A DNA stretch of 64,000 nt, from the IMG/VR virus record IMGVR_UViG_3300031705_000002, positions 30,958-94,957 of that record, one strand, 5' to 3'. The DNA comes from a virus. The notes under the pieces are model-generated. The model did no database searches. It saw nothing but the letters and a program-made list of their open reading frames with translations, and was not told the DNA's origin. Positions 5,959 through 25,600 of the stretch are shown here, piece by piece. Within the stretch, counting starts at the first letter, position 1, and each line of letters opens with the position of its first letter. Made by a program: the position numbers and the translations under genes.

Positions 5959-6878
5959 TATGCTCTATCGTTTAAGTCCTCAAAGAATGATGCCCCACTG
6001 TCCATGTTTGGTATTAATCTCACCCATTGATTCATGAATGATTCATACTTAGCTATGTCTGGGTAGTTAGCTGCGTTCCTAGCTTGTGTACAATAGTACT
6101 GCCATTTTTGATCTGCAAAGCCGTAATCAATTTTGTTTGTCGGTTTATCAAATCCACCTAATAATAATTTTTTAAAGATGTACCAAAACATGGCTTCTTT
6201 AAAACTAATGTCATCCGGGATCATAGGATAGTTATCCTTATCCGTAGGGAATGCCATATAACTTAAACATACCTGACCAGAAGCGAAGGATGTTTTAAGG
6301 TATCCATCATCAATAATGTATGAAGCTATACTGCTTGCAAATTCATTACTGCACCCATCTGCATGCATACTCTTGTGAAAAGTACCTGAACCGTATTTTA
6401 AAGGTTTTAAAGCAGCAGAGTTTCCAAAGTATATATTTTCAAGTACTACTATTCTATTAGTAAGTTCTCGAAGTTCTAGTACATTGGATTTATATTGAGT
6501 ATCAAATTGATTTAAATCAGCAGTAACTAAGTTTGAAGATGTTAGAGCTTCTACGTTCTCATTGTACTCTACAATGTCCGCTTTTAAACTATTTACCTTC
6601 TCTAGAATATTACGAAGCTCGTTACTAGTTCCTGGAGAGGTTGACTCGTTTAAGGCTACTTGGTTTATGTAGTATAAATCTGCGGGTAGTACATACCTAT
6701 GATTCTCTATAATACACACTGTTTGTTTATTGACAAGTTGTGCAGAAGCCCCGATATGCTCCAGCGCTTCTCCTATCCATTCTACGGCGTCTATAACCCA
6801 GTCCGCATTATTAGGTTTAAGATCTCGCATGATCTTTCTAATAATGGGTTTACATGAAATATGCTTATATACTGCCAT
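5958..6878 (-). CDS. Tail/head-completion (ring-type) structural protein
   Basis: 306 residues. Features include an N-terminal helical part with WIGEALEHIG, a central probable coiled coil (about residues 85-150) and a C-terminal segment with LSYMAFPTDKDNYPMIPDD followed by FWYIFKKLLLGG and QKWQYYCTQARN. The 'LSYxAxPxDxxxxPxIPD' plus 'WQYYCxxAR' combination is, from memory, typical of a conserved connector protein of crAss-like phages that acts between portal and tail. It lies directly between a small conserved gene and the giant nozzle-like gene with a one-base overlap, which fits co-assembly. No enzymatic motif is visible. Function is inferred from family memory and position. Confidence 0.65.
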   Translation of the reverse strand: MAVYKHISCKPIIRKIMRDLKPNNADWVIDAVEWIGEALEHIGASAQLVNKQTVCIIENHRYVLPADLYYINQVALNESTSPGTSNELRNILEKVNSLKADIVEYNENVEALTSSNLVTADLNQFDTQYKSNVLELRELTNRIVVLENIYFGNSAALKPLKYGSGTFHKSMHADGCSNEFASSIASYIIDDGYLKTSFASGQVCLSYMAFPTDKDNYPMIPDDISFKEAMFWYIFKKLLLGGFDKPTNKIDYGFADQKWQYYCTQARNAANYPDIAKYESFMNQWVRLIPNMDSGASFFEDLNDRA

Positions 6879-6879
6879 A

Positions 6880-7353
6880 CTAATTTTTTTTAAATTTTAA
6901 ATACGCCAAATCATCTGTTCTTAAAAGATGAATCAATTTTTCTTTATTTCCCTTTATTCCTCGTGTTAGGTCAAACCTATACACGGACTTATTAGGTATT
7001 AAGCATTTTCCTTTTCTCCAATAATATCTACAGTACTCAGCATTAGTATGGTATATGTACCATTTTATTCCCTTACCTGTTTCGGAGTTATATAGGGCTA
7101 TACCCTTAGTTTCTAGCTCTTTTTTATACTTCAAGCTTTCCCCCCAATCTATTTTAGGGAACGAAGGATTTGTTTCTACTCTCACAATCGACAGTGAAGA
7201 TAGTTTATTTCCCATATTAAACGTGCCTCCATCTAAGATATAATCAATCATATCTATGTTGAACTCAGAGCATATAGCTGTAAAAGTTTTCTTATCCACA
7301 TATTCCTTCTCAGAAATATATTTTATATATATATCTTTTAAAGTGTATCCCAT
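6880..7353 (-). CDS. Conserved small phage protein, copy A
   Basis: 157 residues, paralogue of the gene at 13116-13580. Shared marks are an ILDG/MLDG segment, an 'IDWxxSxxxKK' segment (IDWGESLKYKK here) and an aromatic 'RYYWRKG' segment (YRFYWKKG in the other copy). It starts at the ATG at 7353, sharing one base with the end of the ring-like gene. No catalytic motif, signal peptide or membrane segment is visible. Position in the tail operon suggests a structural or assembly role. I do not recognise a defined function. Confidence 0.6.
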   Translation of the reverse strand: MGYTLKDIYIKYISEKEYVDKKTFTAICSEFNIDMIDYILDGGTFNMGNKLSSLSIVRVETNPSFPKIDWGESLKYKKELETKGIALYNSETGKGIKWYIYHTNAEYCRYYWRKGKCLIPNKSVYRFDLTRGIKGNKEKLIHLLRTDDLAYLKFKKN

Positions 7354-8051
7354 TATCTGGCAGGTCCTCTACTAGGTGAAGGCGGTGCTGAAACATCCTG
7401 TGCATTATCATTAGTGGTGTCACTTGGAGTGGTCGCCAACAACTGTAATTCCTTAGAAGCAATCCCTTCTGTAATAGCTTGTATCATATCCATAGGTATT
7501 GGGTAGTCATCAGTGCTATTATAACAATCGTTACCCTCACAGTCGAACGTAGCTAATGACTCAGGGTCTTCAAATATACCTCTTATATTTATATAGGATA
7601 GACCATTAGCGTTATAAATATAGATATGGTCCTCAATCATATACGCTCGCCTCTCATGATTAGTATACTTATCATAAGGAAGCCACTGTACAGTTATAGG
7701 GTCTACAATAGGAATAGTCTCTAGCCCTGTTATATCTCCTACATGTGTGATAGCGTCTTTAAAGTTTAACCTAACTGTTTTAGGGATAGGCTCTACAGAC
7801 TTGTATACAGAAGCTCTGGCAGGTAATCTACAGCATTTAGTAGCATCAACTTTCTCTACTTTAATACATTTTAAATCCTGCTCAAGGTGCCTAGTTATAT
7901 TACCATTTCTAGCATAGTCCCTACGTATCAGCATTGCTCGGTAATACTTAATGTTAAATTTAATTTGAGCCAGAGATATATGTTCACTCACATTAGATCT
8001 ACCTCCTCTAACTAAATTTAAAATGTTGTATGCTATTTCATCTAGTGTCAT
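7353..8051 (-). CDS. Tail ring/collar-like structural protein, copy A
   Basis: 232 residues. Begins MTLDEIAYNILNLVRGG, then ISLAQIKFNIKYYRAMLIRRD, a Cys-containing 'DLKCIKV...CCRLP' part, 'HVGDITG', 'YDKYTNHERRAYMIEDHIYI' and 'IRGIFEDPESL', ending in a Pro/Ser-rich tail. The same series of motifs is present in the paralogue at 13580-14275. From memory this is a conserved virion protein of crAss-like phages, probably one of the ring proteins between portal and tail. It sits in a four-gene block that occurs twice in this window. Role inferred. Confidence 0.6.
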   Translation of the reverse strand: MTLDEIAYNILNLVRGGRSNVSEHISLAQIKFNIKYYRAMLIRRDYARNGNITRHLEQDLKCIKVEKVDATKCCRLPARASVYKSVEPIPKTVRLNFKDAITHVGDITGLETIPIVDPITVQWLPYDKYTNHERRAYMIEDHIYIYNANGLSYINIRGIFEDPESLATFDCEGNDCYNSTDDYPIPMDMIQAITEGIASKELQLLATTPSDTTNDNAQDVSAPPSPSRGPAR

Positions 8052-8057
8052 ATCTTT

Positions 8058-9209
8058 CTACACATTAGTTTGTAAATATCCTTCGTATCCTCGTTGTTTG
8101 TTCCATATATGTGCCTGACCTGTTCTTTTAGCCTCATACCCCATCATCTTATGCCAATCATCATTCTTGCATATAGAAGGTATGAACCTAACTTTAATCC
8201 CTCTGTACTCATTTACCATTTCTTTGTGTACATGGCCACAGTGCGCTTCTCTTGAGGTCGTACGAGCAAACATAACAGGTTGCTCAGTAGCCATTATTAA
8301 TGGCATGTCAGCTGCCTTAACTTTGTCTCCGTGTGTAAACATAATCATGTTGATCCCGTACTCGTAGTACTTACGGTGCTCAAATGAATTATCTATTAAC
8401 ACTTGACCATCATTTGTGAAGTACGCATTTAAGTACTCACCGGCGTAGAACATACGTTCATAGTCGTGATTCCCCTGTATAACTACTACGTCAACTGGAG
8501 CATATTGAGATAGATACTGGATTGCTCTTACGATTAATGCGCAGTATCCTACAAATGTTTCTTTCCAATCTGCTGAATCAAATTGAGGTGTACCCTTAGT
8601 GGTAGCCCTACTTAACCCTTCAGAATTCATACCATCATTACCTATTGGTAAGAGTATTTTTTCAATATCTAAACCTTTAGATTTAATCATAAGGTCCTCA
8701 ATCACATTCATATACTCTTCCTCAGCTTGTTTTAAAGTTTGACCTGTATACTTTCCATAGTGAATATCAGGCAAAGATACCTCGTATGTAACGGGATCTT
8801 TTGCTTTGCTAGGTTCTACTCTTGCACGTATCGGGCTGTGGTTCTTAAGGATCTCAATGATTTCAGCCTTAGTGTTATCTATGACTTCATCTTCCCCCTT
8901 AACGACAACAGAGAATCTTTTTTCTCCTCCCATATTCTGCCAGAATTTAACTGACTGAATATCATTCTTATCTATATCGTTCTCTTGTACGAATCTATCA
9001 AAATCATTTAACTCGCTTTGGTCTATGTTTATGTTAGCGTTTGAGAGGACCATACTAGTAAAGCCTCCCATTGCTTCTATCCGCGCTTCCTTCAATGCTT
9101 CTTTACAAAGGTCTACATCGCATTCTAATTTTAAAGCTAATCTCCCTGAGCCCTCTTTAAGGTATCCAGGCTTGAGATGTAAAAACTCTTTAATTTCAGA
9201 CTTCGTCAT
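8058..9209 (-). CDS. Calcineurin-like metallophosphoesterase, copy A
   Basis: 383 residues. The metal-binding motifs are in order: D148-x-H150, G190-N-D192, G246-N-H-D249, H293-G-D295 and G325-H-V-H328, the layout of the calcineurin-like phosphoesterase superfamily (two-metal phosphoesterase or nuclease). The first 50 residues (KPGYLKEGSGRLALKLECD, then a helix with KEALKEARIEA) look like a small helix-turn-helix. Copy B at 14276-15454 has a different N-terminal domain. The start at 9209 overlaps the end of the holin-like gene by four bases (ATGA). Substrate unknown; DNA or RNA ends are plausible given the putative DNA-binding domain, but this is inference. Confidence 0.85.
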   Translation of the reverse strand: MTKSEIKEFLHLKPGYLKEGSGRLALKLECDVDLCKEALKEARIEAMGGFTSMVLSNANINIDQSELNDFDRFVQENDIDKNDIQSVKFWQNMGGEKRFSVVVKGEDEVIDNTKAEIIEILKNHSPIRARVEPSKAKDPVTYEVSLPDIHYGKYTGQTLKQAEEEYMNVIEDLMIKSKGLDIEKILLPIGNDGMNSEGLSRATTKGTPQFDSADWKETFVGYCALIVRAIQYLSQYAPVDVVVIQGNHDYERMFYAGEYLNAYFTNDGQVLIDNSFEHRKYYEYGINMIMFTHGDKVKAADMPLIMATEQPVMFARTTSREAHCGHVHKEMVNEYRGIKVRFIPSICKNDDWHKMMGYEAKRTGQAHIWNKQRGYEGYLQTNV

Positions 9210-9592
9210 GATTTTTTAATTTTCTCTATGGATCGTCCAGCGAAGTACGCTCCATAAACGGTTATCAATAAGGTTTGGTAAATTGGTTTGTACGCATCAT
9301 CCATTACAAATTCCCCCACATTACCGTCTACAAAAGACATCAGTACGAGAATTATAGTTAAAAAAGAAAGTATTAAAGGTCGTATATTTTTTGGTAGCCA
9401 TGCATCAGATTTCATATCTGCTTCCCATCGCTTGCTAACTTGTTCTTGAGCTTGTGCCTCAGCTCTCATGAAGACTTCTTCAATCTTCTGCTTTGCTTCC
9501 AGCTTCTCTTCTTTAGAAGTAGTTAAATTATCAAGTACATCGCCGACTTGCTTAATTAATCCTCCACCTAGTAAGTCTAATATCTTATTCAT
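9206..9592 (-). CDS. Holin-like membrane protein (3TM holin family), copy A
   Basis: 128 residues. N-terminal amphipathic part with LDLLGGGLIKQVGDVLDNLTT, a charged probable coiled coil (residues 28-60), then hydrophobic segments at about 70-90 (IRPLILSFLTIILVLMSFVD) and 103-118 (IYQTLLITVYGAYFAG), ending in a Lys-rich tail. The pattern 'SKxxLPKNIRPLxLxxLT' matches the gene-transfer-agent/phage 3TM holin family. A near-identical paralogue lies at 15451-15837 next to the endolysin. This copy is not beside an endolysin, so it may be a redundant or repurposed holin. The four-base overlap with the phosphoesterase gene is kept in both copies. Confidence 0.7.
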   Translation of the reverse strand: MNKILDLLGGGLIKQVGDVLDNLTTSKEEKLEAKQKIEEVFMRAEAQAQEQVSKRWEADMKSDAWLPKNIRPLILSFLTIILVLMSFVDGNVGEFVMDDAYKPIYQTLLITVYGAYFAGRSIEKIKKS

Positions 9593-10251: not shown

Positions 10252-13116
10252 TTATACTGCTGCTATTGTCATTATTCCTCCGTTAACTTGATCTCCAGAC
10301 GCTTGAGCTAATTCTATCAGTATATAGTTGGTGGCATCTGCAGTCACGTCCGTTATATTTATACTGGCCCCTACGTTACCTGTACCTTTACTTGTTACAG
10401 CTCTAGCATCTACGTTAGCCTCATATACGGTTATTGCTGGAGATCCAGTACCATATATGTGCACATCAGTTGCTTTAAACCCTGCGGGAATCTCTGCAGA
10501 AGCAAACATAGTATTAGCACCGTGACTTTCTACCCACCTATCACTAGTTGTATCATCTATTGCTAGAGGTCTACCTCCGTCATCCGCTATAAAGTCACTT
10601 GGTAGGATTTTTATATATAACTCTTGAGTTTTTATCCTAGCTCCTTCTATTGTAACCTTACCTGCTGCAGTTCTTGCTATAGTAGTGTCTGAAGCGTCAC
10701 CTAATTCTATTGCTCCTTCTACAGTTAAAGACTTGTCTTGCCCTACAGTAAGAGCAAGAGCAATAGCACTAGTAGTATTAGGTGTAACATAGAACTCAAT
10801 CTTACTTCCACCATTAGCATCATCTGCATGATTTTCAGTTGCTACACCTCTCATTTGCAAGGTTGTACTTGTATCATCGTCATTTTGCCAAGCTATTACA
10901 CCTATATTATCTCCGTCAGCAACTGTAGTACTAGAGTCTTTTAAAATAAGGCCAGGTGTTGTTCCTTCTATAAAACAAGCATCAGCTAAATATATATAAT
11001 CTAAATTTCTTTTTATATACAGTTGTTTTAGATACGAATTGTTTTGTATAGTACCTAAACTAAATGTGTCATCATCTTCATTGTAAGCTATTTTAGCTCC
11101 ATATTGAGGAGTATCTACATCATAACTTCCTGTTTCAAAAAATGATATACCACCACCTGTAGTATCACTACCATTTCGACAATCTATAGAAATCCAATTG
11201 TTACTAGTACTAGTGTCTCCACCAATTCGCATGTTAGCAGTGTAAGTCTTTAAAGAGGTTACAGTTTGTGCAACGTTTAAGTGCATTGTATCTGCATCTA
11301 AGTTTGCGTTTGGTAACACTCCTGTAACTTCTGCAGTCAAATCTACACCACCGTCTTTTATTGTTACAGCACCTGAAGAAACTGCAAAGTTGTCAGAACT
11401 AAAACTAGCTTTACCTTTTGCAGATGTAGAAGCGTCTGTAACTATAGCTGTAGCATTACCTGTGTCAAGAGTACCTACAGTAGTTATAGCAAGTCCGTGT
11501 ATATCAGCCTGTGTTTGGTCAGCAGTAGCTCCATCTTCTACATTAATAATTGTACGAAGATTAGTTGCAGATATTTCTTCTACTACTCCTGCACCTGCAG
11601 AGTCTCTACCTAATACTACGTTAGTAGCTGATACGTTTTGCATCTTAGCATATGTAACTGCGTCTGCAGCTATTGTTGTAGCCCTATTACTAGAGGTTAC
11701 ATCTCCTGTTAAATTACCTATAGAAGCTACACCTGCCGCTAATGTAGCAGCGTCTGCAGTAGATGCATTACCTGTTGTATCTTCATTCTGTAAAGCTAAT
11801 GTTCCTGTAGACGCAGGTAAAGTTACTGTTATATCAGAGCCTGGATTACCTCCCGACAATGTTGCTTCGTGTACATCATCTGAAGTACCTTCAAATATAA
11901 TATCATTACCAAATACAGTTGCATCTCCTGTAGTAAAAATAGTACCAAGTATATTTAAGTTTCCACTTATAGTAGTGTCTCCGTCTGCGTCTACTTTAAG
12001 TCTAGGTAAAACCCCAAACCCATTAAGACTACTTCCTGAAGTTCCGTCAGCGGCTGTCCAAAATTCTATATCTCCACCATCTCCAGTTCCTGTACCTTGA
12101 CCTCCGTAGAACTTTAAAGATCCTCCTTGCTGGTCTGTACCTGTTCCATTAGCCCCCTCTAACTTAAGAGTTCCTCCTACACCTGCACCGTCTTGCCGCT
12201 TTATGCCTATGACTGTTGTGTTTGTTGGTCCTATTGTCAGCCTGTTTGACGCAAAGGATAACTGTGTCTCCGCTTGAATAGCAGATGCCCCATTACCTGT
12301 AAGAAGAGAGTTGGAAGTTAAACTAGTTGCCCCAGTACCTCCTTTACTAACTGGAACCGTGTCTGATAAAGTTGACCCTGCAGCCGTAACAGTTATGTCT
12401 GCGCTACCATCAAAATCTTCCCCGTTAATCGCCCTAGCTGTAGTGAGTATTGTAGCTGATGCGGAAGTGGTGGCGGTTATTGAGGCACTCCCAAGAGCTG
12501 CTAAGTTATTAGAGCTTGATGTCCACTTAAGGGCACTAGAAGAAGTGTCCCCAAATATATACATATCACTACCATTTCCATTAATACCGAAACTTAACGT
12601 ATTTGAGGAATGGGAGAGTATTGCGTCTCCATCTCCCCAACCTATAGAAGCTCCAGTGGCTAGATATAAATTAGCCCAACTTTTTGTGGGTGACCCTAAA
12701 CCTATTCCATCATTACTCGTAGGGGAAAGGTAGTTGGCATTTAAGCTTATCTCAGTAACATTGTTTATTTTAAAATCAATCTCATCGGCAGTACCAAAAT
12801 CTATACAAGTCTCAGCATCCTCACCAATGATTAAGTCAGTGACTAATATAGACGATGGATTTAAGGGCATAGCGGCTATATCAGAAATAACTTCTGCACC
12901 TGTTCTGTATTTTACTACATTACTAGCATCGATTGTAAGGAATTTATCAGGGTCAGTGGTATCGTTTTGTAAACCCTCTATCTTAATAGGGTCTAATTTA
13001 TCCTTCACATGAAATTTATGTGTAGGAACTTTAACTCCGATACCCACTCTAAACAGAGTAAACATATCGGAGGACTTTTCCTTAACCTGTTTCCAAAAAG
13101 ATACTAATTTTTTCAT
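10252..13116 (-). CDS. Phage tail fibre
   Basis: 954 residues. Begins with a short N-terminal anchor-like part (MKKLVSFWKQVKEKSS) followed by IGVKVPTHKFHVKDKL, then long Ser/Thr/Gly/Ala/Asp-rich repetitive beta stretches. The segment PVSKGGTGATSLTSNSLL near residue 260 is a hallmark of phage fibre shafts. Distal parts have jelly-roll-like spacing. No C-terminal chaperone or peptidase motif is obvious. The gene separates the two copies of the duplicated four-gene block. It probably mediates host recognition and may have been part of the segment that moved or duplicated. Starts with a one-base overlap with the preceding gene. Confidence 0.85.
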   Translation of the reverse strand: MKKLVSFWKQVKEKSSDMFTLFRVGIGVKVPTHKFHVKDKLDPIKIEGLQNDTTDPDKFLTIDASNVVKYRTGAEVISDIAAMPLNPSSILVTDLIIGEDAETCIDFGTADEIDFKINNVTEISLNANYLSPTSNDGIGLGSPTKSWANLYLATGASIGWGDGDAILSHSSNTLSFGINGNGSDMYIFGDTSSSALKWTSSSNNLAALGSASITATTSASATILTTARAINGEDFDGSADITVTAAGSTLSDTVPVSKGGTGATSLTSNSLLTGNGASAIQAETQLSFASNRLTIGPTNTTVIGIKRQDGAGVGGTLKLEGANGTGTDQQGGSLKFYGGQGTGTGDGGDIEFWTAADGTSGSSLNGFGVLPRLKVDADGDTTISGNLNILGTIFTTGDATVFGNDIIFEGTSDDVHEATLSGGNPGSDITVTLPASTGTLALQNEDTTGNASTADAATLAAGVASIGNLTGDVTSSNRATTIAADAVTYAKMQNVSATNVVLGRDSAGAGVVEEISATNLRTIINVEDGATADQTQADIHGLAITTVGTLDTGNATAIVTDASTSAKGKASFSSDNFAVSSGAVTIKDGGVDLTAEVTGVLPNANLDADTMHLNVAQTVTSLKTYTANMRIGGDTSTSNNWISIDCRNGSDTTGGGISFFETGSYDVDTPQYGAKIAYNEDDDTFSLGTIQNNSYLKQLYIKRNLDYIYLADACFIEGTTPGLILKDSSTTVADGDNIGVIAWQNDDDTSTTLQMRGVATENHADDANGGSKIEFYVTPNTTSAIALALTVGQDKSLTVEGAIELGDASDTTIARTAAGKVTIEGARIKTQELYIKILPSDFIADDGGRPLAIDDTTSDRWVESHGANTMFASAEIPAGFKATDVHIYGTGSPAITVYEANVDARAVTSKGTGNVGASINITDVTADATNYILIELAQASGDQVNGGIMTIAAV

Positions 13117-13580
13117 TACATAAAATAATCTAGTTCTCTATCTTCATCTTTTAATATACCCGCCAACCTTCTAGCGTTAGTTCTGGTTGGTATGAAAGCG
13201 TATGCAGTTATATTCTTAACTGCCCCCTTCTTCCAATAGAACCTGTATTTATATCCTCCTGTATGAGCGTTCATATGATAGATACGCTTCTTCAGTTCTT
13301 TAGATTTTTGCCAATCTATCCTGAGGGTATTCTTGTCTGCAAAATTCATCTTAGTCTTTTTGACTCTCATGAACCCTAGCCTAACAAGAAGTTTAATCTC
13401 AGCACTGCCGTCTAACATCTTGTCTACCAGTGCTTTATTATATTCATCACAAACCTTTCTGAATACTTTGTACTCTGCTTGCAATTCTTTTATTGTATTC
13501 TTCTTGTAGAACTTGTAAATATCTCTACATCCATTATCTATTTTGTAAACTCCGTCTCCTCGTTTGCTGTTTTCGTACAC
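13116..13580 (-). CDS. Conserved small phage protein, copy B
   Basis: 154 residues. Paralogue of the gene at 6880-7353, with MLDGSAEIKL, RIDWQKSKELKKR and YRFYWKKG at matching places. Basic overall. It follows the ring-like copy B gene with a one-base overlap, the same order and spacing as in block A. No enzymatic signature is seen and the function is unknown. Confidence 0.6.
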   Translation of the reverse strand: MYENSKRGDGVYKIDNGCRDIYKFYKKNTIKELQAEYKVFRKVCDEYNKALVDKMLDGSAEIKLLVRLGFMRVKKTKMNFADKNTLRIDWQKSKELKKRIYHMNAHTGGYKYRFYWKKGAVKNITAYAFIPTRTNARRLAGILKDEDRELDYFM

Positions 13581-14275
13581 TATTTCTGAGCGTTAGGTTG
13601 TAGGTCTGAGTTAGCATTATTTGATCTATCTGTCTGCATCTGAATCATAGGCTGCATATTCTGAGCCATCATAGCTTGCTTAATTAGATCTAGCATTGAA
13701 GTAGATAAAGGGTATTCATCAGTTTCTACATCGTAGCAAAGGCTATCATCTGATTTTGTGTACTCTCCTATCCTAGTAGGATCCTGCCAAACACCCTCTA
13801 CTTTAATCTCTTCTAATAACTCTGCTTCTGGGCCTAAGATATATACGAATCCGTCTAGCAAGAATGCAAATGTCATCCTCTGAGTATATCTATTATTTCC
13901 TGCCCAGGGAGCTCTGTTGTAAGGGATCATGTGGAAGTTGGCTGAGAGAATTCCTGTAGGCCCAATAGCTGTTACCAAATTTTGGTGAGCAGTTTCTACT
14001 GAACTAGGTATCTTCTTCTTAGATCTAACGATCATAACTTCATCTGAAAGACCACAAGTAGTCCCACTTACAGGCTCTACCTCTAGACAGTATATTAATT
14101 GTTTAATATTATCAGATATACTCCTACGCTTATTAATATCCTGACGGATATACTGCGCTCTTAGGGTGTGTATCTGAAACTCGATCTGACGATCTGATAT
14201 AATATCATCATCAGATTGAACCCCACCACGAATGATGTTCTTAATGTCGTAAACAATTTCTTTTAATAGTGCCAT
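13580..14275 (-). CDS. Tail ring/collar-like structural protein, copy B
   Basis: 231 residues. It shares with the copy at 7353-8051 the opening (EIVYDIKNIIRGG), the ISDRQIEFQIHTLRAQYIRQD helix, a Cys pair, 'LVTAIGPTG', 'RYTQRMTFAFLLDGFVYI' and 'VEGVWQDPTRI', and ends in an Asn/Gln-rich tail. This version is closer to the family pattern I remember from crAss-like phages than copy A. The start codon at 14275 directly abuts the end of the phosphoesterase gene. Likely a virion ring protein; having two versions suggests a layered connector. Confidence 0.6.
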   Translation of the reverse strand: MALLKEIVYDIKNIIRGGVQSDDDIISDRQIEFQIHTLRAQYIRQDINKRRSISDNIKQLIYCLEVEPVSGTTCGLSDEVMIVRSKKKIPSSVETAHQNLVTAIGPTGILSANFHMIPYNRAPWAGNNRYTQRMTFAFLLDGFVYILGPEAELLEEIKVEGVWQDPTRIGEYTKSDDSLCYDVETDEYPLSTSMLDLIKQAMMAQNMQPMIQMQTDRSNNANSDLQPNAQK

Positions 14276-15454
14276 CTAGTCTAAATTTACTTGTAAGTGC
14301 CCTTCACACCCTTTACTTTTATTCCATATATACGCCTGAGCTTCTCTCATGGCCCCGTAACCCATCACCTTATGCCAAGTATCGTTAGGGCAAATACTAG
14401 GCAGGAACCTTACTTTAATCCCTCCTGTGTACGTGTTAACAATCTCTCTATGTTGATGTCCACAGTGTATCTCTCTATATTTACATTTAGCAAATTTTAC
14501 AGGTTGCTCTGTAGCCATTATTATAGGCATGACTGCAGGTTTTTCTTTGTCTCCGTGGGTAAACATTATAAGGTTTGTTCCGTACACATAGTACTTCCTA
14601 GACTCATAACTATTATCCACTTCTACTACTGTAGAATCTCTATACCAAGATTCAATAACTTCACCTATGTAGAACATACGTTCGAAGTCATGATTACCTT
14701 GTATTACTATAACGTCTACTGGTGCGAATGCTGCTAAATAATCTATAGCTAACACTAACAACTTCCAATATCCTCTAAAGGTCTCCTGCCATTCCTCAGA
14801 ATCATGCTGAGGAGTTCCCTTAGTTGTTGCTCGGCTGTACCCTTCAGAGTTTAAACCATCATTACCAATAGGAAGGATAAACCTTTCTATGTTAAGTCCA
14901 GTTGCTTTTCGATGTAACTCCTTAATAGTATTAAGGTATATTCGATTAGCTTTCTCTTGGGATACTCCCGTTATCTTACCATAATGAAAATCAGGTAAAG
15001 ATATTTCGTATGCTACTGGATCCCCTATCTTAAAATCATAGGCTGGATCTGGATGCTCGGGTACGTATTCCTGCATCTCTTTAAAGAACTCTTCTTTAAA
15101 CTCAATTAAGTTTGCTGCCTGCGGTTTAGTTACCACAGAGAACCTAGAGTCTCCCTTAACTGTTTGCCAGTGTTTAACCGACGTTACCTCTTTTTGATTT
15201 ATACCTTTTTCCTTCAGGTGTATATCTAGTTCGGGAAGGTACGCATTCTCAGCTGAACTGTAGTCTTTCGTGTCATTTTCATTAGAGTTTTTATCTGACT
15301 CCTGCCCTGACCACTTAAATCCTCCTGCGGAATTCCTAGCTCCTAATAATACTTTTCTTATACTACTGTCGTTTACTCCCGACTCTCGCATAGCTTCCAT
15401 GATTGTTGCGTACTCCCCTACAATATTGCCTTGGCTATCAATTTGTAAAATCAT
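14276..15454 (-). CDS. Metallophosphoesterase copy B with NUMOD1-like N-terminal domain
   Basis: 392 residues. The catalytic domain carries D155-x-H157, G197-N-D199, G253-N-H-D256, H300-G-D302 and G332-H-Q-H335, all ligands of the calcineurin-like fold. The N-terminal 48 residues (QIDSQGNIVGEYATI, then AMRESGVNDSSIRKVLLGAR and SAGGFKW) look like a NUMOD1 domain, the small DNA-binding helix-turn-helix usually attached to homing endonucleases. Copy A has a different N-terminus here, so the two paralogues share core and order but not the targeting domain. Starts with a four-base overlap (ATGA) with the holin gene. Nuclease or phosphatase activity on DNA is inferred. Confidence 0.85.
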   Translation of the reverse strand: MILQIDSQGNIVGEYATIMEAMRESGVNDSSIRKVLLGARNSAGGFKWSGQESDKNSNENDTKDYSSAENAYLPELDIHLKEKGINQKEVTSVKHWQTVKGDSRFSVVTKPQAANLIEFKEEFFKEMQEYVPEHPDPAYDFKIGDPVAYEISLPDFHYGKITGVSQEKANRIYLNTIKELHRKATGLNIERFILPIGNDGLNSEGYSRATTKGTPQHDSEEWQETFRGYWKLLVLAIDYLAAFAPVDVIVIQGNHDFERMFYIGEVIESWYRDSTVVEVDNSYESRKYYVYGTNLIMFTHGDKEKPAVMPIIMATEQPVKFAKCKYREIHCGHQHREIVNTYTGGIKVRFLPSICPNDTWHKVMGYGAMREAQAYIWNKSKGCEGHLQVNLD

Positions 15455-15837
15455 TTCTTTTTTATTTTTTCAATACTCCTCCCTGCAAAATAAGCTCCGT
15501 ACACGGTGATTAGTAAAGTTTGGTAGATTGGTTTATAAGCTGCGTCCATTACGAATCCTCCTAGATTACCATCTAAGAAAGACAGTACGACTAGGATTAA
15601 AGTTAAAAAAGCGAGAGCCAAAGGTCTTATGTTCTTGGATAACCAGTTGTCAGACTTCATGTCTGCCTCCCATCTCCTAGAAACTTGTTCCTGGGCATTC
15701 GCTTCAGCTTGCATTAGCACTTCCTCTATCTTTTGACGGGCAGCTAACTTCTCTTCTTTAGAGGTGGTTAGATTATCAAGTACATCTCCTACTTGCTTAA
15801 TCACTCCACCTCCTAATAGGTCTAGTAGTTTACTCAT
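15451..15837 (-). CDS. Holin-like membrane protein (3TM holin family), copy B
   Basis: 128 residues, very similar to the copy at 9206-9592 along its whole length (LLGGGVIKQVGDVLDNLTT, then RPLALAFLTLILVVLSFLD and YQTLLITVYGAYFAGRS). Hydrophobic segments lie at about residues 70-90 and 103-118. It lies directly downstream of the M15 endolysin gene with a four-base overlap, so this is the better candidate for the lysis holin that lets the endolysin reach the wall. Confidence 0.75.
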   Translation of the reverse strand: MSKLLDLLGGGVIKQVGDVLDNLTTSKEEKLAARQKIEEVLMQAEANAQEQVSRRWEADMKSDNWLSKNIRPLALAFLTLILVVLSFLDGNLGGFVMDAAYKPIYQTLLITVYGAYFAGRSIEKIKKK

Positions 15838-16292
15838 GATAAGTCTGCATATTTATATTTAGTGTCATTGTCTTCATCCTTGTAGGCTTCCAACACTTGC
15901 TTTCTATTACCTTCCTTAATCAACGATATGTGTATCCAAGCGAAGTCGAATTCGTTAATCATTTGGTCGAACTCAATACCACTTTCTAATACCCAGTCGT
16001 AGATTTCTTTGTTCGATATTTTACCATCGTTCCAAAATTGCAAATCCAAAGCCTCACCTTTACAATGCTGGCTTTTGTTACTTCCACCGATAGCCCTGTT
16101 GAGGGCTGGGTTGCGATAACCACTACTGATCCTGATAGGACCAAGAGCTTCTCGCATAGGTTGAACAAGGTTAGTAATAATCCTTTGAATACTTCGTAGG
16201 TGTTCTTTGTTGGGGCCATTATCTATCCCCAACCGTTTAGCTGCATTGCTTCGAGTAATCTCAGACAATACAAAATTATCGCTTAATCTCAT
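15834..16292 (-). CDS. Endolysin, peptidase M15 (D-Ala-D-Ala-type carboxypeptidase/endopeptidase)
   Basis: 152 residues, single catalytic domain, no signal peptide. The motif SSGYRNPALNRAIGG followed by SQH76-xxGxAxD83 and WIH121 gives the three zinc ligands of the M15_3 family, which cuts peptidoglycan peptide cross-links. The length is normal for phage M15 endolysins without a binding domain. It is followed by the holin-like gene (four-base overlap) and preceded by a secreted-protein gene whose end overlaps its start by 17 bases. Part of the lysis cassette. Confidence 0.9.
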   Translation of the reverse strand: MRLSDNFVLSEITRSNAAKRLGIDNGPNKEHLRSIQRIITNLVQPMREALGPIRISSGYRNPALNRAIGGSNKSQHCKGEALDLQFWNDGKISNKEIYDWVLESGIEFDQMINEFDFAWIHISLIKEGNRKQVLEAYKDEDNDTKYKYADLS

Positions 16293-16785
16293 CTATGTAC
16301 ACCTTTCTAGTTAATATTCCGTTACTTGCTATATAGAAACCTCTTACAGGTTTTACTTCTCTGCCTAAAATATCGTAATAGTGAGTTGGGATGAAGGGTG
16401 TATTATCAACCTCTTCTATTCCTATAGTCAAGCATCCTACATCTACTAGTTGCTCTTTGAATTCTTGCGGCCAAGTACCAAGCGAATCGATCCAATCTAC
16501 ATCAGATAAGAAGTCATACTCTGTTTGACCTACATATAAGTATGCACCATTCCATCCGTCTCCGTAAGAGTCCATCATGTTTATCTGGTAATACTCTGGT
16601 AATACAACTGCACCTAAATAAGGAGCTATACCTTCTAATAATATACCACCATTACAGGTTAGAATCTGCCAAGTTATCTCATCAGGGTATTCTCCTGTTG
16701 TACACTCTACAAATACTTGTTGCTGCTGTGCTGAAGATGTTAACGACATCAATGTCACGAACACTAAAAATAATAGTTTTTTCAT
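16276..16785 (-). CDS. Secreted protein with DSYGDGWNG motif and T9SS-like C-terminal sorting domain
   Basis: 169 residues. N-terminal signal peptide (MKKLLFLVFVTLMSLTSSAQ). The middle has MMDSYGDGWNGAYLYV, a motif frequent in marine Bacteroidetes secreted proteins. The last 35 residues (YYDILGREVKPVRGFYIASN, then GILTRKVYI) look like a type A T9SS C-terminal domain: Tyr-Asp-xx-Gly-Arg, Gly-xx-Tyr-Ile, and a Lys-Val-x-Ile end. This suggests export across the inner membrane by Sec and then surface display or release by the host type IX system. It sits in a cassette of envelope-directed proteins next to the endolysin. Possible roles are blocking receptors after infection or assisting lysis; both are inference. 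Confidence 0.75.
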   Translation of the reverse strand: MKKLLFLVFVTLMSLTSSAQQQQVFVECTTGEYPDEITWQILTCNGGILLEGIAPYLGAVVLPEYYQINMMDSYGDGWNGAYLYVGQTEYDFLSDVDWIDSLGTWPQEFKEQLVDVGCLTIGIEEVDNTPFIPTHYYDILGREVKPVRGFYIASNGILTRKVYIDEIKR

Positions 16786-17153
16786 TATTGGAATTTGTTA
16801 AATGTTATTTCGTCTATAACAGACTGTACTTCTTTTTTGGTAGCATTCAACTCCATCATAATGTTGGGGTTAAATCTGTTCTGCTCCACACCATTATCGA
16901 AGACAATAATGGTGGGAACTGAGGTTACTTTGTATTTACTCTGAAGGTCGGAGCTCTTGATAATACACACTCTATACGAGGAACAATCTTTTAGAGCCTC
17001 TAGGAATTCAACTTCGTTTCCTTGATTCCATTCTACCCAGAATTCTACGACTACTATACCTTTAGCTGTCTTGGGTCCAAATGAGCTAGAAGTGACAAAC
17101 TCTTGAGCTACAATATTTGTAGTAAGGAGTAGTAATAATAATAAGTATTTCAT
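16785..17153 (-). CDS. Exported thioredoxin-fold protein lacking the CxxC active site
   Basis: 122 residues. Signal peptide MKYLLLLLLLTTNIVAQ. The body follows a thioredoxin fold: VVVEFWVEW (strand before the active site), then QGN where WCxxC would be, and YKVTSVPTIIVFDNG with the conserved cis-proline region. Both active-site cysteines are absent (WNQGN), so it cannot do dithiol exchange in the usual way. It starts with a four-base overlap with the DUF2279-like gene and ends one base into the T9SS-cargo gene. It may be a binding or chaperone protein in the periplasm; function unknown. Confidence 0.7.
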   Translation of the reverse strand: MKYLLLLLLLTTNIVAQEFVTSSSFGPKTAKGIVVVEFWVEWNQGNEVEFLEALKDCSSYRVCIIKSSDLQSKYKVTSVPTIIVFDNGVEQNRFNPNIMMELNATKKEVQSVIDEITFNKFQ

Positions 17154-17452
17154 ATTGCTATTCGTATTGTAACAACTCCTAGCACCGATCCCACTGCGTC
17201 TGCAGCTAAATCACTCCACTCAGGTTGTCCGTGTTTAATGTCATAAATTTCTTTAATACTTCCAGCTAAGACGGCTGCGCATAATCCTATCAGTATCGCT
17301 TTCTTCTTGTCGTTGGTTTTATTGTAAACTACAGCACTAATAGTAGAACTAATTACATAACTCCCACCAAGATGTAGAAGCTTGTCCTGTGGTACTAGTT
17401 GTGCACACACATTACTTGTAATCAATAACGCTATCAAAAGTAGTTTACTCAT
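17150..17452 (-). CDS. Small periplasmic/membrane protein, DUF2279 (YfiM)-like
   Basis: 100 residues. Signal-like N-terminus (MSKLLLIALLITSNVCAQ), then DKLLHLGGSYVISST, a hydrophobic helix (KAILIGLCAAVLAGSIKEIYD) and HGQPEWSDLAADAVGSVLGV. The 'DKxxHxxxS...KExxD...SxxDxxxxxxG' layout matches YfiM/DUF2279 proteins. In Bacteroidetes phages such genes occur near lysis genes and might contribute to outer-membrane disruption. It overlaps neighbours on both sides by four and eight bases, so it is co-translated with the envelope cassette. Confidence 0.6.
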   Translation of the reverse strand: MSKLLLIALLITSNVCAQLVPQDKLLHLGGSYVISSTISAVVYNKTNDKKKAILIGLCAAVLAGSIKEIYDIKHGQPEWSDLAADAVGSVLGVVTIRIAI

Positions 17453-17723
17453 AAAGCTTTTGTTTAATAAGCTTCATGTCTTCTTTCATCTCAGAAACAT
17501 CTTCCTGAGTATTCATGATAGTCTGACGTATCAGCTTATCTTTCATATCGAACTCCATTCGAGTAATAACAGGGTCTATCGGTTCAGGTAACTCCCTAGC
17601 TTCTGCTATATCGTTCTGTAGTGTAAACCACATCCCCACCAATGTTGCTATTAAGAATGCTATACCTCCTAAAGTCTTGAGACTTATCTGTACTGCACTG
17701 TCTTCACTTAATTCTTTAGCCAT
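17445..17723 (-). CDS. Single-pass membrane protein with periplasmic or cytoplasmic coiled coil
   Basis: 92 residues. One transmembrane segment (GGIAFLIATLVGMWFTLQ, about residues 19-36), followed by a Pro-rich linker and a charged coiled coil (TQEDVSEMKEDMKLIKQKL) to the end. The topology resembles inner-membrane spanin or Rz-like subunits, and the position in the lysis/envelope cassette fits that, but no spanin signature can be proved. Overlaps the next gene by eight bases. Confidence 0.55.
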   Translation of the reverse strand: MAKELSEDSAVQISLKTLGGIAFLIATLVGMWFTLQNDIAEARELPEPIDPVITRMEFDMKDKLIRQTIMNTQEDVSEMKEDMKLIKQKLYE

Positions 17724-17726
17724 CTA

Positions 17727-18755
17727 TTAAAATATTAAATAATTTATTCCCGTTTGCATATTATAAGATCTTATATCCCAGTACTTAAGGTGTCTTCCTT
17801 CTACGAAGATACTAAAATGTTTGTTAAATTTAACACCAAACACCACACCAATATCCCATTCCGTCGTTACCCCAGGGTATGAGTAGGAATATTCACTCAA
17901 ACCTTTATGTGCAGGATACACAGAACCCCATGCATGCATCCAAGACTTGCTTGAATAATGATAATAATCGGCTCCTACAACCATAGAAACTTCTTGTTGA
18001 AGACCCAAATCATTAAGTTGCTGATTGTTGTATTCGTTTACAGCATCCCCAAAATGATACGAGTAAAACTCAGGGTCTGACTCAGCGATAACTTCCCCTT
18101 CATGAGACCACACATGATTGTCATCATCAGTGTATCCAAACTCATTAGCTAGCTGCCACCAGTGTTTGTTCTCAGGCTTAGAGAACCATTCCTCTATTGG
18201 AGAGTATCCGTACACAGGGTGAGAACGATGGGCTACGCCTAAAGTAAGGTCGATATTACCAAAACTTTTACGTAGCCTAACCTCGCCCAGAGTATATTTA
18301 AGATTAATTAATCCGTCATCCACATACGAAGCTTTCGATGTTAGGTGATCAGATATGTATCTAACCTTATATTCTTGCTGTTTAAATTTCATCCCTCTAT
18401 TACGAATGGATGAGTACTTAAACAAGTACTCTAAACCAGGTGCGTTAGATATTGTAGCGTAATCGCTACTCTCGTCTTCTGAACCCGTGTAAAAATTACC
18501 CTGTTTTACCTGGTAATCAAAACGTGCTATCTTTCTAAGCCCTATTGTTATGTTATAATTAGGAGCGCTGACCTCAGTCATCTCAACAAGCTGTCCAGAG
18601 CCTGCAATCCCATCAACTATAAAAGCTTGATTCTCTGAGAAGGGTGCTGCCGTAGACATACTTGCATAGAATGTAGCAAACCTAAATAGGGAGAACCCCA
18701 TCTGAGCATTAGCAACCGTGCTAACAAACAGTAATATGTATAATAACTTCTTCAT
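17727..18755 (-). CDS. Outer-membrane beta-barrel-like protein encoded by the phage
   Basis: 342 residues. Signal peptide MKKLLYILLFVSTVANAQ; the mature part has many amphipathic beta strands with aromatic girdles (YNITIGLRKIARFDYQV, YKVRYISDHL, EVRLRKSFGNIDLTLGVAHR, WDIGVVFGVKFNKHFSIFVEG) and ends in Phe (GINYLIF), as outer-membrane barrels often do. A large hydrophilic insertion (residues 185-245) could be an extracellular loop. Overlaps the upstream small membrane-protein gene by four bases. A phage outer-membrane protein could block superinfection or weaken the envelope; this is inference. Confidence 0.65.
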   Translation of the reverse strand: MKKLLYILLFVSTVANAQMGFSLFRFATFYASMSTAAPFSENQAFIVDGIAGSGQLVEMTEVSAPNYNITIGLRKIARFDYQVKQGNFYTGSEDESSDYATISNAPGLEYLFKYSSIRNRGMKFKQQEYKVRYISDHLTSKASYVDDGLINLKYTLGEVRLRKSFGNIDLTLGVAHRSHPVYGYSPIEEWFSKPENKHWWQLANEFGYTDDDNHVWSHEGEVIAESDPEFYSYHFGDAVNEYNNQQLNDLGLQQEVSMVVGADYYHYSSKSWMHAWGSVYPAHKGLSEYSYSYPGVTTEWDIGVVFGVKFNKHFSIFVEGRHLKYWDIRSYNMQTGINYLIF

Positions 18756-19658: not shown

Positions 19659-22600
19659 TTAACATGTTTTACAATTACAAAGATCAGCTAACTTCTCTTT
19701 GTACATTTCTATTTTAATTTGATTACCTTCTTTTAAGGACGCTACATACGCCTGGTATATGGCATATACTTTAAGAGCCTTCAATTGACTCTCTGTGTCT
19801 TCCTTTAAAAGATTAACAGCTGTCATAGAGTTCTCTATACAGTTATGTAACTCCGTTGAAACACAAGACCCATCATCATAAAGAGCATCAATATCATAAT
19901 TGAAAGACCCTATAGTAGTACATCCAGGTTTAATTAGATTTAAAGTGAATGGCTCAAAGTAAGTTGAGTTGTACACAGTCTTAGTTTGTAGTGTATTTCC
20001 ATACTCATCCTTTAGTACATACACAACCATATTATCAGATAAAACCTTAACCCCTATAGGAGTGGATTCTGCTAAAGTAAAGCCCTCACTTACAGAGGCT
20101 CCCTCCGTAAGCGCCCCCGAAAGATCCACTAACTTCTCTCCTGTAGCTACATTGTAGATAACAAAAGCAGTGTCAGAGTAATCCGATACTGGAGACTCCT
20201 CAGTTATTACCTCTACAGTAAAACTAGTGAATTCTCCTTCATCCTCCTTAACATCTCTAGAACACCCTAGGGTATTTATAGCTAATGGAGAGCACCCTAT
20301 AGAGCAGCTTCCTGGTCCAGTTTTTAAAACTATACTACCATCTGCAGTTGTAGACGATCCATGATCTAATACATGTAAAACATTCTCCCCTTTTCTTAAA
20401 GTTAAAGTTAAATCAACCCAAGAATTTAAATAGTTAAACCCTATAGGCATAAACCCTACACAATCAGGAGAGTTTAAAATAGTAGTTATCCCTGAAGCAG
20501 TAACAGTGTTAAGGATAGTCCCTGATATAGTATACAGTATGTAGTCTATATTAGCTTCCGCCCCTTCAGGTTCTACAGTAATAGTGTAAACACCTGATAA
20601 ATCCTCAGTACCTTCAACGTCTTCAAGCTCTATTAGGGTTTGACATAACGACATATCAGGAGTCCAGTAAGTAGGATCCGAAGTTGCCTCAGGGTTAAAC
20701 TCCAAGTAGTCAGTGTTAGGACAGTATGATGTAGGCACTATGTACTCACATACACTGTTATCAGATATTTCACAATCCCCAAGTATCTCTGAAAAGGAAA
20801 CAGCTACTGTATCAGTACACACTGATAAATATCCCCCACTAGTTATACAAGGATCTACACAGGCTCCACACACCCCTGCATCAGGAATGTATAAAGTGCT
20901 TGTAGGAGCAGTAGTAAGATTCCCTACACTAGTAACAATACTTACTACGCCTCCCGTAGACAGTGTTTGAGCTTGACTTTGACTTATAGCTCCTGAGGTT
21001 AGTAAGAACATTACGTTATTACTTTCCGTACCCCAATCCTCATACTGACAAACTCCTGTACATACATATACCGTAGTCACATTAGAGTCTAAGTCTGGGA
21101 AATAAGGAGCAAACGAGATGCCCTGAGTAAGTTCCGCTATAGTTCCGTCAGGATCTAAAGCCATTAAAACTCTATATACATGGTAATTAGTTTCATAAAA
21201 GTTTTGAGGTGTAGCGGTTGTTTCGTCCTGATACACAGCTAAGTGCACAAACCCCTCTATAGTTCCGTGCTCTATAACGTCTGTGTCTACATCTAGTTTA
21301 GTTACAGATATTATATTAGAACCAATATAAGAACCAAATACATCTTCAATATAAACATTATCTATTAGTTCATCCGTCACTCGGAAGTAGAAGGAAACCG
21401 CCTTACCTATAACTGTTGATACAGTGTTTGAGTCTATAGAGCTTACACTTCCTAACACCCCCGTAATAGTATTAACGGAAGGATTAGTTATAGAGTATGA
21501 GAACGTAACCTCCGCATTTTCATCAGCTCCTGCTAAAGTAAGGGTAGGGTTAAGTCTAGTTATATTTTGACATCTTTTAGTTATATACGGATTATCCCTC
21601 GTATAAACTACCTCCCCAGGTATAGGTAGGAGTTCAGATATTACATCGTTAAGTCCTACCTCTAAATCATAATAACCTATAGTATAAGTATCTTCCCCGT
21701 TAACATTAGAGTAGGTACCTGTATGATGAGTAATTATTGGATTACCACTAAAGTATACAGCGTCTACAGAAGAATCTAGAACAGTAAAGTCCTCAGGGTT
21801 TGTGATACCGAAGTATTCACAATTACCCCCCTCCACTAAAGCGGTAGGGTCATGATTGTACGCCTGTGGGTCTGTACATCCCGTACAAGTACTGTTGTTC
21901 CCGTCACACACTCCACACAGATCTACTGTAGAACCTTGACAATCACATACATCGCCAGGAGTAGTAGTGCCTATTACAAACGTAGTCGCATTGTTACACT
22001 CACATTGAGGCACAACCTCATTAGGGCCATTACAAATGAGACAAGCATCAAGCGTTGAAGTACCTCCCTGAACGCCTGCACAGTCCGTATCCGTCTCTGT
22101 TCCTAAAAGAACACAAGCACCAACAAATTCGTCATACACATACCCTGAGCAACACTCGCCGAAAGCAAGTGGGGCTAAACTGGCATAACTCGAGCACCCA
22201 CCTGGAGCACAGTATTGGTTGCCAGCTAAAGTGTATATAGTAGTAGCTTCATCATAAACTGCTCCTACCACAAATTCTGTTGTAGACACCATGCAGTCAT
22301 CAAATGTAACAGTGTTGTCACAGGAATTAGAGATCCCTCCAGGGGAGTATTCTACGGTATATGAGGGAGCTGCAGCTCCGTCAACGCACCCACAGTTAGG
22401 TGAAGCGAAAGGGATATTCCCCTCACAGTCGCAGTAACCTTCAGGTATATCAGCACACGCACATTCATATTCTGTAGCCTCAACTGTAGGGTCGAAGCAT
22501 CCGCACTCTCCCATCTCGAAAGGTGTGGAAGTAAGAACGCCCTCCACGCCATGCGGAATACATTCATTACACTCGTCACTAAAACCTTCGCAGCCATCCA

Positions 22601-25600
22601 CCCCTAAAGACTCAGTTAAAGGTATCCACATCGGAGTCCCTGCATAATTTAATTCTTGCAGGGTAGGGTCTCCAGGGCATATCGCAGAGCTTGAATATGA
22701 TGCATGATACCCGTCGCCGTCTATGTCTAACACATATAGAGACGTCGTATCACTACATATTATCGCCCCTTCAGCATCGTAGCACTGTTGGTTGAAGTCC
22801 GCTATATTACTCTCTCCAGCGCAATCGCAATACTGTCCATGTACCTCTGTAGAGTTTTGTCCCGCACAGTTACATAAAGAATTGTCTATAAAGTTTCCAC
22901 CACAATCACAGTTAACATCCAGTTGGCCTGTACCGCCATCACAGTCACATACACCGTATGCCTGTAAGTATGTTATGGTATTTTGATCTAAATTCCCCGC
23001 TAAGTGGTCTGTGTACTGATCACAATTGCAGTACCCGTTACTATCAGAAATAACAGTGTCAGGGTTGTTAGTACAATCCGTACAATTAGATATACCTGCC
23101 CCTAAATAAGAGGGAGTCAAACCTCCTGCACCATCACAGTTGCAAGCATTCGTAGGATTTACACAAAGACTCTCTAAGTGTTCAGAAGGATAAAGGTCGT
23201 CACCAGAGTTTAGAAGTAAACCATCCTCCACAAAAGATCCTGAAGTTCCGTATCCGTTACAGTTAGTAGTATCTGTTAATAAATCTGAGCATCCATAGAA
23301 GGTGCATGCAGATAAATCTTCTACACAATCAGTGACGCCTTGGCACCCTGCTGCAGAAGTGTTATTTCCTAGGTTTGTCCCCTGAGGACATTCATAGCAT
23401 GCGGTTGTTTGGGTTCCTGTGCCTTCTAGGTATACAGCGCCAGACCCTGCACCAGTTACATCGCCATTGGTATGGCAAACCCCACACTGATCCACGTGAG
23501 TAACTCTGTAATCTCCCATACATACATCACAGGCATCCCCAAAGGTGCCTTCATCAAACGGGGGAGTCGTACAGCTACCATCATTGACGTTAGCTAGGGG
23601 ATTAAAATTACAACACCAGTCATACGTACATCCAAATATAGGAAGAATGTAACCTAGATCCTCTCCTATATCAGTTACAATTCCCCCAAACTCTCCTTTA
23701 GCGGGTAGTAATGGGTAGGCTCCAAGGGAATCCCCCTTATAGAGATCTATACCAAACGCAATGCGAACCGCGTCAAAGTCTTCAGGGTTAACTAATCTAG
23801 ATATTCTAGAGTGGAAGTTAGTACCTATATATATATGCCCATTAGGCAACTTTAAAATATTGTTTATAAGTCCTGCAGCGTTTACATCCTCTACATCAAG
23901 AAGATTCCGTTTTATGTCGTTCGCCGAAATAACAGTACCAGCAGGTAGGTGGGTAAGGGGTGAAAAACCAACCTGCCCTCGTTTATATTTTCTTATACCT
24001 CGAATATCCCCCGCTCCATCCGCAACAGTAACATATACGATGTCTACTGCCAGTTCCATAGAAGCTATAGAACCATATACTGAATCAAATAGCTCTGATA
24101 AAGACATAGTTATTACAGTCGTCGACCCACTAGTTGGAAGTGTAGCCAAAGAGGGAGCGCCGTTGTTGCTTGTATAACTAAGTGCATACAAGGCTTCAGA
24201 TACTTTTAGTATCCCCCCATCAAACGTACCTGACGTACCTGATAAATCTGTAGACAAATGCTCTGTTAAAGTAGATGTAGAAATATCGTTAACAATAGGA
24301 AACGATTGTAGTTTCATTGTAACACCTATATGGGTATAAACATATATAACAGTTCTGTTACCTAGACCTGTATTTATAACACAAGTATCTACTATTACTT
24401 CTGATTCAGGTATAGTTAATATCTCTCCCTCCAAAACTACTGTACCTAAACACATACCCCAAGGAGCTGTGAAGGAGGTACATCCTATACCAAAAGTCAA
24501 CTTATAACTTTTAAATACATTGCCATCTAAGGTTATTATTTTATAGTGAAAATCATCTAATCCTGTGTAAGTTTCCACAGAAATAACCTCTCCCTCTATA
24601 ACGCTTAGTGTGTCTCCTATTCTATTCAGCACAGTGTATGCCTCCTCGCCGTTTATTTTCGCTACAACTGCAACTAAAACTCCGTTAGATGACACTATCC
24701 TAGCTCCCTCTACGGATAAGTCAATATTTTTATTATTTATATAATATTCAAAAGAAGAAACGTCAGCAGGTAAAGATAAATCTTTAAGATTTACTGCTTC
24801 TCTCCCTACATTTGTAGCTACATACATATATTCCTCACTATCCCCTATAGGTAAAAAAGCTCCTGGAGGTGTAGGGGTTATTATATTTAATTGCCTGTGG
24901 TTGTTCGGGTCTCTCCATTCGAGGGAGTGCGTTAGCAAAAATTCTTCATAAGAATTAAAACTTACAGCTACTCCTAGACCTGTTTCTAAGCTAATTTTTG
25001 CAGTATCTATGACTAGCGAATTGTTGTGACCCTCTAATGGGAGAGGCAACTCCTTGATAAGTATGTCAGGCAAATTAATCAAAGTGTCTACAGATGTCTG
25101 AAGGTCAGGGGTAGGTATAACTATATACTCTGTACTACCTTTGGCGTACACATGTATAGCTCCATCCTTACTTAATGAAATATCTGTTATAGTACTAGAT
25201 AAAGGATTGCTTATAGATACGATACTAGACCTTATTTCTCCGTGTATTTCATTCTCAAAGAATTCCTCGGAATTAAGTCTGGTTAAATTGTATACTGTTA
25301 TATACTGATCTCCGCTACTAGCGTCTTCCGATATAGTATATAGAAAATTATCATGAGGAGATAGAACTGCTTTTTTAAATAAAACGCCATAATCTCCTTC
25401 AGTAAGATTGTGATCTGTGTTTGGTGCTGCAGCGTACATATGTATTTCTAATCCGTCCACTTCGGTGGGGGCTAGTAACGCTCCACTTATATTATCTACA
25501 TACGTAAGTATAAACCCAAACTTCCCGCCTATAACTACCAGTTTTTTACCTATCCCTAAGTCTGTTGCACCAGAGTTAAGTAGTGTCGTTACCTGGGATG

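Follow-up and report, generated by a model that had tools for sequence, protein, structure and literature searches.

The gene studied here lies in a window of 64,000 nucleotides, the whole stretch of DNA that was analysed, which belongs to the IMG/VR virus record IMGVR_UViG_3300031705_000002. By its terminase, major capsid protein (MCP) and ring protein the phage is a member of the Crassvirales. Its nearest annotated terminase is that of Cellulophaga phi14:2 (38.5%), its MCP stands at 35-38% to crAss-like phages and its ring protein matches CrAss_Ring_2 (E 2.3e-38). The host is probably a marine member of the Bacteroidota, within the Flavobacteriales.

The sequence-only reading had called an open reading frame of 169 residues at 16276-16785, and this was borne out at exactly these coordinates. 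The coding strand is the minus strand, while the plus strand across the same positions is full of stops. Also present in the translation are the features to which that reading had pointed, namely the MKKLLF...SSAQ leader and the motifs DSYGDGWNG, YYDILGREV, GFYIASNG and KVYI. The gene, its modules and its neighbours are listed in Table 1.

Table 1. Features of the 169-residue protein and of the surrounding late genes (CTD, C-terminal sorting domain; T9SS, type IX secretion system).
Feature	Position	Strand	Basis
CDS, 169 aa, stop codon included	16276..16785	-	ORF call; conservation in 26 viral loci
Predicted Sec signal peptide, residues 1-19, cleavage probably between A and Q	16729..16785	-	By eye, composition and hydropathy
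DSYGDGW beta-sandwich domain, residues 22-118	16432..16722	-	Relatives; dN/dS; weak CBM60 likeness
DSYGDGWNG motif, residues 72-80	16546..16572	-	Near-invariant in 22 aligned viral members; S73 replaced by T in some
Linker, residues 119-130	16396..16431	-	Relaxed dN/dS
Short C-terminal T9SS-like tail (mini-CTD), residues 131-169, about 39 aa	16279..16395	-	Profile matches to cellular tails; dN/dS
YYDILGREV, resembling CTD motif B (loop beta3-beta4, essential Gly)	16354..16380	-	Aligned with type A CTD motif
GFYIAS, resembling CTD motif D	16324..16341	-	Alignment
LTRKVYI, resembling CTD motif E (conserved Lys, last strand)	16294..16314	-	Alignment
Signal-peptide, thioredoxin-fold protein without CxxC	16785..17153	-	Pfam Thioredoxin E 3e-5; conserved neighbour in two phage groups
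YfiM/DUF2279-like small envelope protein	17150..17452	-	Profile searches
92-aa membrane protein, weak Rz-spanin likeness (E 0.035)	17445..17723	-	Conserved neighbour
342-aa signal-peptide protein, predicted outer-membrane beta-barrel, about 14 strands	17727..18755	-	AF2 and VIA; conserved in cassette
Peptidase M15 endolysin	15834..16292	-	PF08291 E 3.8e-17; phrog_894 endolysin E 4.8e-32
Holin (GTA_holin_3TM family)	15451..15837	-	PF11351 E 9.9e-7, above gathering cut-off

The late cassette

The cassette runs from the outer-membrane barrel through the small membrane proteins and the thioredoxin-like gene to the 169-residue gene, the M15 endolysin and the holin. The start of the 169-residue gene shares the last base of the stop codon of the thioredoxin-like gene upstream and its 3' end overlaps the M15 endolysin gene by 17 bp. 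Because of these overlaps on both sides we regard the gene as part of an operon. The neighbourhood is kept in the 26 loci inspected, as far as their flanks reach.

By its AF2 model, which is only fair (pLDDT 56), the barrel gene product clearly has the look of an outer-membrane barrel, with VIA Z 13 to barrels of this kind. An assignment to the known PorP/SprF or PorV proteins was rejected, as there is no Pfam or PDB sequence match and the fold match is generic: a chain of the T9SS complex (8gl6_F) reaches Z 10.1 and ranks among many unrelated barrels. Relatives of the barrel were found in at least 327 IMG/VR stretches.

A four-gene block (154-157 aa protein, CrAss_Ring_2-like protein, metallophosphatase and holin) occurs twice, at 6880-9592 and 13116-15837. 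The copies are 27-84% identical, with the holin at 84%. At its N-terminus the second metallophosphatase (14276-15454) shows a stretch with weak resemblance to the NUMOD domain of the homing endonuclease I-HmuI, and this stretch is absent from the matches of the other copy. A 2622-aa protein (19659-27527) carries several GCTDPxAxNYxxxAxxDDGSC repeats, which are also found in the tagged proteins of a second phage group described below.

Modules of the 169-residue protein

Relatives of the protein were detected in 26 IMG/VR loci with 61-98% identity. The annotated phage collection holds no relative, and a sequence search of the PDB with the family profile gave chance matches only. Scanning IMG/VR with the phage tail alone returned the same family and no other architecture, and the rest of the virus record outside the window, scanned as two loci, showed no second tailed protein. 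Over 22 aligned members dN/dS is 0.102 in the domain and 0.106 in the tail, compared with 0.449 in the linker and 0.440 in the leader. Since the ratio is low in both domain and tail and relaxed between them, we describe these as two separately constrained modules on a loose linker. The motif B glycine (G141) and the motif E lysine (K161) of the tail are invariant in the viral alignment.

The leader reads MKKLLFLVFVTLMSLTSSA and is followed by Q at the predicted cleavage site; judged by composition, equivalent leaders are found across the viral family. Other members have a longer hydrophobic leader, likewise ending in AQ. The leader (16729-16785) comes in two unrelated versions, a short MKKLLF type (window and L001) and a long MNKERLEESGW type, and these suggest recombination at the leader within this gene family.

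The AF2 model of the protein (pLDDT 72.7) consists of a beta-sandwich and three predicted strands in the tail. The fold search with the whole protein gave no clear fold. T9SS CTD structures came up at Z around 4, and we set these matches aside as evidence because the alignment falls on the DSYGDGW domain and not on the tail. For the DSYGDGW domain the best PDB likeness is a calcium-dependent CBM60 (PDB: 2xfd) with VIA Z 5.6 and an rmsd of 3.8 over 83 residues, a match which is within the range of unrelated beta-sandwiches and too weak to rest on. The DSYGDGWNG motif may form a Ca2+ loop.

Relatives of the DSYGDGW domain occur in marine Flavobacteriales, Neomarinimicrobiota and SAR92-type genomes. 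There are 56 complete carriers, of which 26 have a type A CTD at the end, seven a short tail and 23 neither. Three host proteins (L038, L073 and L074) combine a signal peptide, the DSYGDGW domain, a PHB esterase body (in L074 a related body which was not profiled) and a short tail. In its predicted architecture the phage protein resembles a host protein of this type minus its enzyme.

It had been claimed that the end of the protein looks like a T9SS C-terminal sorting domain, and a search with T9SS profile HMMs had been named as the check. This check was negative: no T9SS type A, B or C model of Pfam or NCBIfam matches the protein. Searches of Pfam, NCBIfam and PHROG gave no useful match at all, with no type A hit at E<=10 in NCBIfam or Pfam, and none of 21 aligned relatives was recognised as T9SS by Pfam. 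A local type A profile (A3) built from 20 type A CTDs of marine Flavobacteriales also did not find the protein, and the profile-profile comparison of the viral tails with type A CTDs aligned one short motif (9%).

Type A CTDs (TIGR04183/PF18962) are characterised by a seven-strand Ig-like fold, a length of 70-100 residues and motifs A to E. The phage tail differs in each of these. It corresponds to about half of a type A CTD with the first half missing, and it has motifs B, D and E and neither motif A (YPNP) nor motif C. What the two have in common is the position at the C-terminus of a signal-peptide protein, the motifs B, D and E, and their exchange in homologous phage proteins. By the profile searches alone a chance likeness would be expected, since no T9SS profile matches; the relatives of the tail argue otherwise. 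The claimed resemblance thus stands in so far as it lies above chance and extends to short tails of host-type bacteria, and it is qualified in so far as the tail is about half a CTD and matches none of the T9SS profiles searched.

Short tails in marine bacteria and tail exchange among phages

The viral-tail profile was searched against 296 genomes from the order to which a marine Flavobacteriales genome belongs. It matches 63 of them and most matches reach a stop codon. Among the matches listed, at least about 24 short tails belong to one genome. Nearly all tail carriers in the regions retrieved from two genomes bear a signal peptide; a heuristic called 15 of 22 and by eye most of the remainder are clear. 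The carriers are unrelated to each other and include PHB depolymerases, a beta-lactamase-fold enzyme, Omp28 and an M43 protease with SprB repeats. The SprA translocon is encoded in all six tail-rich genomes tested. In a sample across the phylum (n=296) the 13 genomes with a tail-profile match all lie among the 228 with SprA, and in several of the 13 the match covers only the motif that is common to type A CTDs.

The consensus of the cellular tails (alignment A4) is LLKIvDiLGREtxPxkNtpLFYIYdDGTVEKKIIIE, for which no library family was found, and the phage form is YYDILGREVkPxxGFYIASdGiLTRKVYI. The cellular tails thus share with the phage tail the motif order, the length, the kind of carrier and in some cases the DSYGDGW partner, but their carriers are mostly enzymes and the phage tail differs in sequence. 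The tails of the proteins at L183:5230-6534 (tail at 6397-6534) and L178:3852-5093 and of A4 members in G016, G057, G029 and others go unrecognised by Pfam and NCBIfam on the proteins tested. Judged by its sequence features, the cellular short tail on proteins of SprA-bearing marine Flavobacteriales looks like an unannotated class of T9SS signal, and as such a signal it is putative in any organism. Because annotation misses this class, counts of the T9SS secretomes in ocean Flavobacteriales are probably too low.

Aligning the viral with the cellular tails by hhalign gave 96.8% (E 2.8e-10) and a score of 48.7, where 200 column shuffles reached 15.8 at most; this match is inflated, as the A4 tails were partly gathered with the phage profile. 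For this reason we repeated the comparison with PHB depolymerase tails, which were collected via the enzyme body without the viral profile. Here hhalign gave 94.5% (E 7.8e-8) and a score of 34.7 against a maximum of 24.6 in 200 shuffles. In the opposite direction, a HMMER model of the A4 tails picked the 169-residue ORF as the only one among 645 phage ORFs (E 2.5e-5, next 0.28), and a model of the PHB tails alone also ranked it first, although weakly (E 0.1).

Scanning IMG/VR with the cellular tails led to a second group of marine phages (L246-L259). Their proteins of 611-951 aa have a signal peptide, DSYGDGW-like domains, GCTDPxAxNY repeats and a short tail in the cellular style. This group has distant terminases and shares the barrel, thioredoxin-like, M15 and holin genes. 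A further IMG/VR scan with the barrel gave 80 loci. A tailed protein lies close by in 55 of them; it is of the window type in 40, bears the cellular short tail in 11 and has a type A CTD in four (L328, L341, L345 and L346). In the remaining 25 no tailed protein was seen, and in some of these the flank is cut.

The four type A CTDs score 28.4-48.7 bits against TIGR04183 (cut-off 23) and 33.4-45.4 against PF18962 (cut-off 27), and a terminase is present in all four records. We count them as three rather than four separate cases because L345 and L346 are 92% identical. The bodies are homologous across tail types; L341 with its type A CTD and L332 with a short tail are 57% identical over 500 aa. 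Homologous phage proteins therefore end in either tail, and this is the strongest argument that both tails do the same job. The tagged cargo itself looks accessory and not essential, since some phages have the barrel and no cargo in the stretch read, such as L321, in which M15 directly follows the thioredoxin-like gene.

Proposed export by the host type IX system and its alternatives

The protein had been proposed to be a phage-encoded cargo of the host T9SS. This proposal holds as the best explanation by the short tails of host-type bacteria and the tail swap, with the reservation that the signal is a short variant which no T9SS profile matches. The accompanying restriction of T9SS to Bacteroidota is too narrow, as the literature assigns the system to the Fibrobacteres-Chlorobi-Bacteroidetes superphylum (PMC7468147, PMC11205867). 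We consider it likely that the protein is exported by the host T9SS through a mini-CTD made up of motifs B, D and E only. We commit to this reading because the phage tail has exactly these three motifs, with G141 and K161 invariant. The phage probably borrows the type IX machine of its host, as its own tail is a miniature of the host tag and the full-size version occupies the corresponding position in sister phages.

A short signal of this kind can be placed against what has been published on type A CTDs. Contacts with PorV are predicted for motifs B, D and E, GFP is secreted with no more than the final 22 residues of HBP35 (motifs D and E), and the last residues and the motif E lysines are required (PMC10202324). 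The glycine of the beta3-beta4 loop is also required (PMC11285876). The CTD described there has an Ig fold with seven strands, is 70-100 residues long and is thought to need its integrity (PMC11285876), compared with about 39 residues in the phage.

In the proposed mechanism a small modular protein with a host-type export tag would be made late in infection, as the position of its gene suggests, and would leave the cytoplasm by Sec through its N-terminal signal peptide. In the periplasm the tail, with motifs B (DxLGREV), D (GFYIA) and E (RKVYI), would be recognised by the host T9SS, supposedly by the SprA translocon and a PorV-type shuttle. The protein would then cross the outer membrane and be released or anchored at the surface, with the tail cleaved or kept. 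Superinfection exclusion, or shielding of progeny against re-adsorption, would be a fitting role for a small surface protein that is made late and may bind glycans. Our best guess for the function, although a doubtful one, is that the DSYGDGW domain attaches to surface glycans and alters the surface of the infected cell, for example by hiding receptors from further phages or released progeny.

Three other readings have to be weighed against export. The protein might be a part of the lysis cassette that faces the periplasm or the outer membrane and never crosses the latter, with the tail docking to a periplasmic partner or left over as a relic of a host gene. The gene always adjoins the M15 endolysin, holin, spanin-like and thioredoxin-like genes, no T9SS profile matches and the tail is shorter than any proven CTD, all of which this reading accommodates. 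A relic would be expected to decay, however, and the tail is as constrained as the domain; moreover, the larger cargoes of the same cassette end in true type A CTDs, for which no role in the periplasm is known. We therefore regard a purely periplasmic part as unlikely. Still less probable, to the point of being very unlikely, is a virion component for decoration or host attachment, in which the beta-domain would bind glycans and the tail would be an assembly domain. The late region between tail-fibre-like genes, the adhesin-like character of the DSYGDGW domain and the GCTDPxAxNY repeats that sister cargoes share with the 2622-aa protein speak for it, but the family has signal peptides of the cleavable type, which are rare on virion proteins, and the same tail is found on secreted bacterial enzymes.

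The last reading takes the protein for an ordinary small secreted protein whose beta-hairpin end happens to resemble a CTD motif. It agrees with the curated profiles, none of which matches, and with the single short motif aligned to type A CTDs. The statistics largely refute it, as the scores lie beyond all 200 shuffles also for the independently gathered tails, and the tail swap in homologous phage cargo adds to this, so that we hold a chance likeness to be extremely improbable.

Within the preferred reading of export by the host T9SS, the late cassette might supply both the tagged cargo and a matching barrel (17727-18755), which would act as a phage-encoded shuttle or anchor and thus as the terminal branch of a T9SS of its own. 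PorP/SprF-like proteins, which are said to shuttle or anchor type B cargo, are the model for this supposed role. In type B CTD substrates with PorP/SprF-like shuttles (PMC12618676) the cargo gene lies near an outer-membrane barrel gene, as it does here; in contrast to these, the phage protein has no type B profile match and the phage barrel matches no PorP/SprF model. As the fold match is generic and a sequence match to PorP/SprF or PorV is missing, we confine any T9SS role of the barrel to this speculative proposal and consider it quite unlikely. If it were true, the phage would determine the final location of its protein on the infected cell.

Phage-encoded T9SS cargo is not a new idea. It was proposed in 2020 for Cryophage (PMC7468147), whose genes were likewise suggested to hijack the host T9SS, and a second source notes it in crAss-BACON phages (PMC6949934), crAss-like phages with T9SS-tagged proteins as here. 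In Cryophage the type A domains belong to three proteins encoded in variable islands (an endoglucanase, a GH39 and a PA14 protein), whereas in the window phage a very small protein with a putative binding domain ends in a short tail and is encoded in a conserved late cassette. The crAss-BACON phages are gut phages with BACON domains, and the part of that source available draws no link to an envelope or lysis cassette. So far as the literature searched shows, new here are the short tag missed by profile libraries, its conserved position in a cassette of envelope and lysis genes in marine phages and the swap with a type A CTD.

If the export reading is true, many marine phages decorate the outer face of the infected cell by means of the type IX system of the host. 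The tail-swapped family also offers ready constructs for asking how small a T9SS signal can be and still work (with motifs B, D and E alone), a question open since the 22-residue result with HBP35; the dialects of the CTD differ between species. Another possible tagged cargo is a phage-borne 409-aa redoxin-like protein at L340:8066-9295, which has a signal peptide and ends in YDILGRTINDLSILSPGAMYIKNGKKFIK.
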